This document shows positions 17,286 through 20,272 of a DNA stretch of 32,780 bases, piece after piece (positions within the stretch are counted from its first letter, which is position 1; every line of letters begins with the position of its first letter). The stretch lies in contig JAISTU010000159.1 of assembly GCA_031272415.1 (NCBI GenBank), positions 1-32,780 on the forward strand, given 5' to 3'. The translations under genes and the position numbers were made by a program. Origin of the DNA: Bacteroidales bacterium. GTDB taxonomy: Bacteria; Bacteroidota; Bacteroidia; Bacteroidales; WCHB1-69. The notes under the pieces are model-generated. The model made no database searches. It was not told where the DNA came from and worked only from the letters and a program-made list of their open reading frames with translations.

Positions 17286-19367
17286 TTAATAACCTCCACT
17301 CCATTTTCTTAAACCCCATTCTGCCGCCAACAATACAAAAATACTGACAAGCAACCAAATGCTGTTCAATAGTGAGGTGTGTTTTTTATTATAATGCACT
17401 ACCGATTTAATATTTGTGTTGTTTTCTAATGTATTGCACAGATTATCAAGGTCATTATCTGCAAAAGATTGTCCATTATTAAGCGATGCCAAATTGAACA
17501 ATAATTGATGATTGGCGACCAAATTTAAGGCTTCAATATTGAGTTGATGAACACTGAAAAAACCTGATTTTGTGTGCTTTACACCATTGTAAACCGTATT
17601 TGCCGTCCATGAATAATCGCCCTGCGGAAACAAGCCCGCATCCAAAGTATAAGCATTAAAAGTTCGCGTAAAAATAAAAGAATATTGCTTCCCTGCGGAT
17701 TTTATTTGCATTTCGACCTCCGGCTGATTAACCAATTCATAATTATCATTAAACAATTGCGCATCAAAACGGATATTTTCGCTCTCCGAAAAAACATTTT
17801 TCCCCGTAACTCTAAACAAACTGCGGTCGGCTTTGGTGGATAAATATTGCATTGTTTTGGAGACCAATTCATCAAATTCGTCCTGATGTTGAGTATATAA
17901 AAAGTTGTGCAAACGCCATCTCCACAAGCCATCACCGGCAAAAATCGCCGTCTTTCGCTCCTGATTTTGACAATATACAAAAAGCGGATAATTGGTGCTT
18001 ATTCCATTGATTTTCTGATACAAAAGCACATTGGTTGCGGGGCTTAATTTGAAATTCCCAAAAGGTACTTTTATCGGAGGCAAAACAGAAAAAAGTTGTT
18101 TGCTTGCCTCAGAGAGTAAAAAGTTGCCAAATCCTTGATTATAAAGTGGAAAAGCATCATTTTTCATGTTATTGGAGGGCAAAACTTGCAGCCCTGCATT
18201 CAATTGATTGAAAAGTCCGTAATCCGTTTGCTCGCCCAAAACATAAAAGCAAGGCATATTTAATTTTTGAATTTGAGCCGTCAATGTCGCCGCAGGATTG
18301 GTGCGAGAGGGCAATCCATGCAATACAACAATATCATAATCGGCTAATTTTCCCGTAAATTTAGACACCTCAAAAGCCTCCGTTTGGTACATATCCATCG
18401 CCTCAATGGACTGCCTAATAGCACTTATATCGGGATGAGGTGCATTGTAAATAAAGGCTATTTTTTTGCGTTGGTCAATAACCTCAATAAATATATCTTT
18501 GCGATTGTTTGCCGTCGTGATTTCACCTGTAATCGGCTCAATTTCAATGCGATAGCGATGAAGTCCGGACTCTTTTGCCTCAAAATTCAACCTCTCCCAT
18601 TGCAGATAAGAATGGGTATTGATAGTAAGTTTTTTCTCAAAAATTAAATCATCTTTGTGATAGACTTTCAAAGTGGTGCTTTGTCCTGCCAATTTGTCCG
18701 CTTTGATTAAAATTTCAAGTGGAAAAAAACTGTTTCTATAAACGGTTTTATTGTAATTTACTTTGCTGATTAACAAGTCTTTATGCTGAATTGTATCGCC
18801 CATCAAAACGCTGTAAACAGGGGCTTTGAGGCGATTGGCAGCATAATATGGGTCATTACCAACATTAAAAATACCGTCACTGAACAATACGACTGCCCCT
18901 ACATTCCTTGACGCATAAGTGGAATTGATTTGCTCAAAAAATGCCGATAAATGGCTCGTTTCATCCGAAAAATCCAACTTATTATTCGCATCTTTTAAAC
19001 GCAAACTGTCGCCAACCAAAAAAGTTTCAACCGTAAATTTATCCTCCAACTTTTGAGTAATTTGCTGTAATTTTTCTTTGAAATCTCCTTTATAATAATT
19101 TGATTTTGAGCCTGTTACAATAGATTGTGAATTATCTACTCCTATTAAAACAATCGGCTTTTCAATGTCTTTACTCGTTTTGCGAATGATAGGATTCAAA
19201 AGCAAAAAAGCAATCGCTGTAACGCAAATCGCCCGCAACACAAATGCCACACGCTTTACCCAAAGAGGCAACTCCGGCAAAGGCGTCCTAACATACAACA
19301 AAACCGCATAACCTACTCCCAAAAGCAAACACAAAAATATAAACCAAAATGAATACTGTGCAATCAT
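17286..19367 (-). CDS. VWA-like membrane protein of unknown function
   Basis: 693 aa; N-terminal TM segments, MIDAS-like DNSQS and VVLFSDGIFN, C-terminal TM (SIWLLVSIFVLLAAEWGLRKW). Confidence 0.8.
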   Translation of the reverse strand: MIAQYSFWFIFLCLLLGVGYAVLLYVRTPLPELPLWVKRVAFVLRAICVTAIAFLLLNPIIRKTSKDIEKPIVLIGVDNSQSIVTGSKSNYYKGDFKEKLQQITQKLEDKFTVETFLVGDSLRLKDANNKLDFSDETSHLSAFFEQINSTYASRNVGAVVLFSDGIFNVGNDPYYAANRLKAPVYSVLMGDTIQHKDLLISKVNYNKTVYRNSFFPLEILIKADKLAGQSTTLKVYHKDDLIFEKKLTINTHSYLQWERLNFEAKESGLHRYRIEIEPITGEITTANNRKDIFIEVIDQRKKIAFIYNAPHPDISAIRQSIEAMDMYQTEAFEVSKFTGKLADYDIVVLHGLPSRTNPAATLTAQIQKLNMPCFYVLGEQTDYGLFNQLNAGLQVLPSNNMKNDAFPLYNQGFGNFLLSEASKQLFSVLPPIKVPFGNFKLSPATNVLLYQKINGISTNYPLFVYCQNQERKTAIFAGDGLWRWRLHNFLYTQHQDEFDELVSKTMQYLSTKADRSLFRVTGKNVFSESENIRFDAQLFNDNYELVNQPEVEMQIKSAGKQYSFIFTRTFNAYTLDAGLFPQGDYSWTANTVYNGVKHTKSGFFSVHQLNIEALNLVANHQLLFNLASLNNGQSFADNDLDNLCNTLENNTNIKSVVHYNKKHTSLLNSIWLLVSIFVLLAAEWGLRKWSGGY

Positions 19368-19610
19368 TATCCTATTTTCTCTATCCTATTTTATTGTTAA
19401 TAAAAATAAACATAATTTACAAAGATACACAAATTCTTCAATTTAAAATTAAAAACCTTTTTTTTATTTATTAATAATTTATTTTTTTTTATTTAATTTC
19501 CTGATAATAAGGATATTACGCATTATATCCTCTGTGACAAAAAGGCATAACGCAATCTTGCTTTTAATTTGTAATTGATAATTTTTAATTGCTCCCGATA
19601 GGGAGTGTGT

Positions 19611-19666
19611 AACTGCTTGCTTATCAAGCAGTTGGTGGTGGGGGGGGGGGGGTAAATGCTTGATAA
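19611..19666. repeat. Overlapping inverted repeats around a 13-G homopolymer
   Basis: AACTGCTTG (19611-19619)/CAAGCAGTT (19625-19633), and TTATCAAGCA (19621-19630)/TGCTTGATAA (19657-19666); G13 run at 19640-19652 lies between the arms of the second pair. Confidence 0.85.
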
Positions 19667-19791
19667 TCAGTCAATTGCATAGAAAAAGTGTACTTTTTAT
19701 TGTCTCTCTCACAAAGACTCAAAGCATTCTCCCAACACATTAACACAGCACCTTCGCTGTACTTTAAATTCTGACTGATTTTATCAACCAT
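19624..19791 (-). CDS. Small hypothetical ORF ending in a poly-Pro tract encoded by C13; possibly phase-variable
   Basis: MVDKISQNLKYSEGAVLMCWENALSLCERDNKKYTFSMQLTDYQAFTPPPPPPTA from ATG 19789-19791 (the supplied GTG start at 19848 overlaps the promoter-like element). No recognised family. Confidence 0.3.
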   Translation of the reverse strand: MVDKISQNLKYSEGAVLMCWENALSLCERDNKKYTFSMQLTDYQAFTPPPPPPTA

Positions 19792-19836
19792 ATTACTTTT
19801 TCCTATTAAAAATTGATTATACTTTTTACATGTTTT

Positions 19837-19864
19837 GCGAAGGTACACTTTTTTTGATACAAAA
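19837..19864 (-). promoter_or_regulatory. Candidate promoter for the small ORF
   Basis: Reverse strand TTTTGTATCAAAAAAAGTGTACCTTCGC is nearly identical to the candidate promoter upstream of the PorP/SprF gene (TTTTGTATCAAAAAAAAGTGTATCTTTGCG). Confidence 0.45.
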
Positions 19865-20024
19865 GTTAATTTTGCGAAAAAAAATTTGCAATTATTTTAT
19901 AATTTATTGATTGTCAAGGAGAAATTTTTTTAAGTTTTTTTATTGTCTGAACTTTGATTTTCGTATGATTGATGTGATTAACATGATTTTATAAAGGTAG
20001 AGAATTTAACCCGAAAGTTTTAAT

Positions 20025-20184
20025 TTTCATAACCGCAGGGCAAACGCAGTGCGACCTGCGGGAAAAAAGACGCATGCTCAATTGTCTGAAAGACATAACA
20101 TTATAAGTTCTGTCTTTCAGACAGTGGTGGGACTGTTATCAAATACCGCAGGTCGCCATTACACTTTGACCTGCGGTTATGAAA
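20025..20184. repeat. Structured intergenic element, copy 1
   Basis: 15-bp outer arms TTTCATAACCGCAGG (20025-20039)/CCTGCGGTTATGAAA (20170-20184). Internal stems TGTCTGAAAGACA (20083-20095)/TGTCTTTCAGACA (20111-20123) and ACCGCAGGTC (20145-20154)/GACCTGCGGT (20168-20177). Confidence 0.8.
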
Positions 20185-20272
20185 GTTTTGTCCTTTCAGG
20201 ACAGGGGAATGAAGAATTGAGAATGTTTTTATCCATTTTTTTAGAACTTTTTTATCCCAAAATACAAAAAAA

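Follow-up and report, generated by a model that had tools for sequence, protein, structure and literature searches.

In Bacteroidota, DNA inversion is the best-known route to phase variation. The closest described systems based on repeat tracts come from other bacteria. In Streptococcus gallolyticus, the pil1 leader carries a GCAGA repeat at one locus and acts through a transcription terminator (PMC3894217). The genome of Campylobacter jejuni NCTC11168 contains 29 poly-G/C tracts of 7 or more (PMC4965091), and at nadA of Neisseria meningitidis a repeat tract lies upstream of the promoter, where its length changes operator spacing (PMC2791445). A literature search returned no report of a C-tract leader cassette system of the kind described here.

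The window, the whole stretch of 32,780 nt that was analysed, belongs to a 2.34-Mb draft Bacteroidota assembly of 229 contigs (hereafter the own genome). It contains one copy of a repeated cassette in which, as in pil1, the repeat is located not in the regulated gene but in a leader ORF upstream of it, so that repeat number, through the frame and stop position of the leader, would set the expression of a downstream surface gene. Unlike pil1, the repeat is a C homopolymer, there are about 30 copies, palindromes surround the tract, stops fall at the downstream start and no clear terminator was seen in a simple scan. The C. jejuni contingency loci are similar in that tens of G/C homopolymers occur per genome and the switched genes are typically surface or modification genes. 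In classical contingency loci, however, the tract lies within the reading frame or the promoter of the very gene that is switched, whereas here an upstream leader cassette with conserved flanks is repeated. The nadA arrangement is not that of the own genome, and no regulator is known here; it resembles promoter-upstream motif sites of other Bacteroidota. Phase-variable hsdS finds its parallel in C tracts within HsdS-like genes elsewhere in Bacteroidota (L257 with C9, L266 with C8), preceded by the same motif. In the hsdS type the tract is within a long coding sequence, and in the own-genome family it is in the leader.

The C tract and leader ORF of the window copy

The original prediction had singled out a run of 13 G on the + strand at 19640-19652. 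The run is there, and it is the sole G/C run longer than 6 in the whole window. Its surroundings, read on the - strand, are as follows.

19856..19864, - strand: -33 region TTTTGTATC of the leader promoter, matching the promoter block of the PorP/SprF gene
19838..19845, - strand: -7 promoter element TACCTTCG, by its sequence a weakened form of TAnnTTTG
19624..19791, - strand: leader ORF of 55 codons plus stop at C13 (MVDKISQNLKYSEGAVLMCWENALSLCERDNKKYTFSMQLTDYQAFTPPPPPPTA), a subgroup A leader common to L002-L005
19657..19669, - strand: 5' palindrome TGATTATCAAGCA, conserved across most of the family; TTTA and then the C tract come next
19640..19652, - strand: C13 homopolymer (G13 on the + strand), the proposed slippage site, C8-C20 among relatives
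19611..19633, - strand: 3' palindromic element AACTGCTTGATAAGCAAGCAGTT, source of the TGA stop for the current frame
19624..19626, - strand: TGA stop of the present C13 frame, 13 nt 3' of the tract
19480..19610, - strand: post-tract region resembling L010-L012, unlike subgroup A copies
19420-19427: own -7 element of the 693-aa gene, TATCTTTG
17286..19367, - strand: next co-directional gene, 693 aa, no Pfam match, uncoupled to the leader in any frame

The ORF sizes had been estimated correctly from the sequence: C13 gives 55 aa, C12 gives 103 aa and C14 gives 89 aa. The stops of the three frames lie 13, 114 and 158 nt past the tract and the next gene starts at +273. Thus, neither extended frame (stops at 114 and 158 nt) gets to the next gene, and tract length at this copy alters the leader frame only. 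The sequence also contains both of the alternative hairpins that had been proposed, TGCTTGATAATCA (19657-19669) and the palindrome AACTGCTTGCTTATCAAGCAGTT (19611-19633). Predicted folds place the C tract in a loop between two arms, as suggested, but the pairing of left and right arms finds no covariation among 19 copies, with a paired fraction of 0.80 versus 0.805 in shuffles. A structured RNA element was considered and rejected, as there was neither covariation support nor an Rfam family above the gathering score.

The likeness of the promoter block to that of the PorP/SprF gene, whose identity was confirmed by Pfam, was rightly noted (TTTTGTATCA...AGTGTACCTTCGC in the window copy versus TTTTTGTATCA...AGTGTATCTTTGCG). 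The Bacteroidota-type -7 element TAnnTTTG, with a background frequency in the window of roughly one per kb on each strand, occurs 90-330 nt upstream of the tract in 31 of 33 family copies (mostly at 177-299 nt), and the window copy is without it. The 5' half of this copy matches subgroup A (L002) and its 3' half, including the post-tract region, matches L010-L012 and not subgroup A; the window copy is therefore a 5'/3' mosaic. BspA-like genes are located about 200 nt downstream in L010 and L011 (confirmed by Pfam for L010), and no BspA-like gene is found downstream of the window copy. To judge from its sequence, the window copy seems to be an orphan or decaying member of the family, with a damaged promoter and a target that has presumably been lost.

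Shuffled 5' and 3' halves are seen between window positions 19480-19865 and L002 plus L010-L012, and also in L017 and L023/L030, as if recombination had occurred at the tract or the palindromes. The window also has an intergenic region (20030-20240) in which CCGCAGGTC and a sequence similar to CTGTCTGAAAGACA are present as inverted copies.

A dispersed cassette family and its downstream genes

The window locus is one of about 35 dispersed relatives in its own genome, which could not be seen from the window sequence alone. Some 40 DNA matches to the window region were identified there, centred on C tracts, and the loci read contain 38 distinct tracts of at least C8. In 32 of the 38, a leader ORF of 36-57 codons runs into the tract, and these share one architecture: a promoter, the leader ORF, usually a palindromic block ending in TTGATTATCAAGCATTTA, a tract of C8-C20, a second palindrome with a TGA, and a co-directional gene. 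The N-terminal parts of the leaders fall into several unrelated groups, and the DNA around the tract is common to most copies (...TATGCAATTGnnTGATTATCAAGCATTTA-C(8-20)-AACTGCTTGATAATCAAGCAGTTACGTGCATTT; the flanks of L043, L064 and L066-L068 differ). Tract length differs among copies, with the proviso that lengths in a draft assembly may be wrong, and the frame entering the tract also differs from copy to copy. Constraint on the leader codons is weak (pN/pS 0.54-1.06), as would be the case if the act of translation counted for more than the peptide made.

The own genome has 24 tracts of C11 or longer and none of 293 other genomes of the order has more than 9, so the abundance of C tracts is far beyond chance. 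No DNA relatives of the cassette were found in 40 related genomes. Contigs C49, C56, C74 and C85 of the own genome start or end in or beside cassettes, and assembly gaps have probably cost further copies.

Where the contig is long enough, nearly every copy has a same-strand gene that starts within about 730 nt 3' of the tract, and the spacer is usually without TAnnTTTG. Among the downstream products are LRR proteins of the BspA type, an outer-membrane barrel protein and an fn3 lipoprotein, together with several secreted proteins, small membrane proteins, methyltransferases (FkbM and others) and a restriction nuclease (REase). Most have signal-peptide-like N-termini, and a few have another or no assignment. 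The genes are thus mostly of surface, modification or restriction classes and resemble those usually under phase variation.

In most copies one frame meets an early TGA 7-13 nt past the tract, and the palindrome TTGATAATCAA holds TGATAA in that frame. A frame that, past the tract, either fuses to the downstream gene or stops no more than 25 nt from its start is present in 15 of the 24 testable copies; when the spacer is shuffled by dinucleotides, 2.9 such copies are expected (P=6e-18). A harsher control, which used points at the same distances upstream of real window genes with operon genes included, predicts 7.0 (P=4e-4). In L004, L009, L013, L019, L021, L022, L024 and L064, the stop is positioned over the start or immediately past it. 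Among these, L021 and L064 have a leader stop that overlaps the start codon, and at C11 the frame of L019 ends over the start ATG. The stop lies 8-21 nt before the start in L015, L016, L017, L030, L040 and L068 (L040 begins at the tract, so that its leader is not visible). In-frame fusion is possible in L024 and L027, and L003 leads directly into a 436-aa ORF. The remaining 9 of the 24 testable copies have no coupled frame. With assembled lengths taken at face value, L004, L019 and L064 are in the coupled frame and most others are out of it. In the family, therefore, the homopolymer is placed where a change in its length would change expression or frame.

The motif and C tract across Bacteroidota

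We scanned 85,000 species genomes with GATWATCAA-N4-TTA-C7, a pattern chosen from the own genome whose matches include chance ones in coding sequence. At least 80 stretches match; among the matches listed, about 74 are named as Bacteroidota, and isolates of Capnocytophaga, Runella, Lacihabitans, Raineya and Bacteroides are among them. Viral contigs gave no match to motif plus tract. In a phylum sample of 346 genomes, motif plus tract occurs in the own genome only and is thus rare per genome. Tracts of C11 or longer taken without bias from the order do not carry the motif, which therefore marks a subclass. Enrichment of TGATWATCA-N5-TTAC without a C tract was strong against a reversed control, but the sites were mostly ordinary coding sequence and this line was set aside.

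The matches are found in several contexts. In L200, L203, L245, L213 and three Saprospirales paralogues, the motif and tract lie in a leader or protein N-terminus before signal-peptide-like stretches. In the HsdS-like type I restriction genes L254, L257, L258 and L266, the motif and a C8/C9 tract lie between the two halves, in and out of frame. Among the 81 sites from the matches listed (L187-L266), a -7 element TAnnTTTG falls 40-59 nt past the tract in 14, a count that includes a few homologous pairs, versus 0-4 in other bins. This suggests a class of promoter-upstream tracts that act by control of spacing in transcription. Homologous pairs differ in tract length: L187 has C9 and L259 has C8 with an identical 300-nt flank, and L233 has C10 and L263 has C7. 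A Paludibacter MAG (L338-L349) has its own multi-copy leader family, in which an unrelated 37-codon leader (MVYKNMxIDNLLKPQQQEV...SLIINML) stands with the same motif in the same layout of promoter, leader, motif and C tract. Four genomes of one family (L111, L112, L117 and L123) share a conserved intergenic TTGAAAATCAG-N4-TTA-C9/C10 that is common to the species.

Among the phylum sites with a nearby gene (n=38, from the matches listed) there was no excess of coupling (17 versus 13.9 expected); support for the leader mode is thus confined to the own genome, apart from single examples in other genomes. We tentatively raise the possibility, which we consider a good deal less likely than its opposite, that TTGATNATCAA-N4-TTA-C(n) is a portable cis-acting Bacteroidota phase-variation module. 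The palindrome would then travel with the C tract in leader, N-terminus, HsdS and promoter-upstream contexts, and would itself promote or control tract instability or bind a dedicated factor.

Proposed leader switching and competing explanations

In the explanation that we consider probable, leader cassettes that undergo phase variation form a dispersed family, to which the tract belongs, and the frame decides access to the next gene. Each cassette would be transcribed from its own promoter and would encode a leader of 36-57 codons that runs into the C tract. Replication slippage, which we infer to take place within the population, would alter the number of C and hence the frame in which ribosomes exit the tract. 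In the OFF state, ribosomes would halt at once on the TGA of the downstream palindrome. In the ON state, they would continue to a stop overlapping or near the next start codon, or read straight into the gene, which would then be translated by coupling and re-initiation or as a fusion. About 30 surface and modification genes could each be switched on or off by chance in this way. The slippage-type phase variation originally proposed for the window locus is thus well supported for the family, by frame geometry and by tract-length differences, but the window copy, which is uncoupled and has an altered promoter, is a candidate only.

The logic is that of the pil1 leader, which contains a repeat and stops at a position given by its frame (PMC3894217), and several of the cassettes end 8-55 nt short of the start instead of overlapping it. 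Translation of the leader could accordingly govern a transcription attenuator or Rho-dependent polarity and not re-initiation. We consider this unlikely, although it is the most plausible of the alternatives: in a simple scan, T-runs of 6 or more were absent downstream of many copies and no consistent T-run after a hairpin was seen, and the many stops that overlap a start codon point to coupling. The original prediction had assumed a small protein with alternative C-termini, and the leader ORFs are indeed open, have start codons and form subgroups of recognisable peptides. That the cassettes are small-protein genes diversified by a variable frame is nevertheless improbable given the pN/pS values above, the variation of frame among copies, the lack of a Pfam match above the cut-off and the coupling geometry with the next gene. 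In the relatives, which lie ahead of other genes, the frames either come to an end at the downstream start or fuse to it, so the idea of alternative C-termini was abandoned; with weak codon constraint and an entry frame that varies between copies, the ORF is best read as a leader.

It is just as improbable that the elements are mobile or recombining palindromic repeats (MITE/REP-like) with an incidental C tract. Dispersed copies, palindromes flanking the tract and mosaic 5' and 3' halves would fit such elements, but upstream of the tract stand a promoter and a leader, the frames show coupling to the genes that follow, and counts of Y1 transposase (PF01797) among genomes are unrelated to motif counts. 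The motif was also absent from the Y1 loci fetched, and an origin from IS200/IS605 or REP/RAYT was rejected, as motif and Y1 transposases show no relation. An assembly or sequencing artefact could be suspected in a draft genome of 229 contigs, several of which end in or near C tracts; with the same flanks at many loci, and motif plus C tracts also in unrelated assemblies including isolate genomes, we regard it as extremely improbable.

Returning to leader cassettes as the preferred reading, genes of this kind may be annotated as OFF, as truncated or with the wrong start, and tracts of this type are places where contigs break. That one palindrome recurs beside C tracts in varied regulatory settings suggests that it marks hypermutable sites or drives them. 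The family would represent a slippage-type system with one leader cassette repeated before many unrelated genes, and thus one type of element could randomise an entire surface repertoire.
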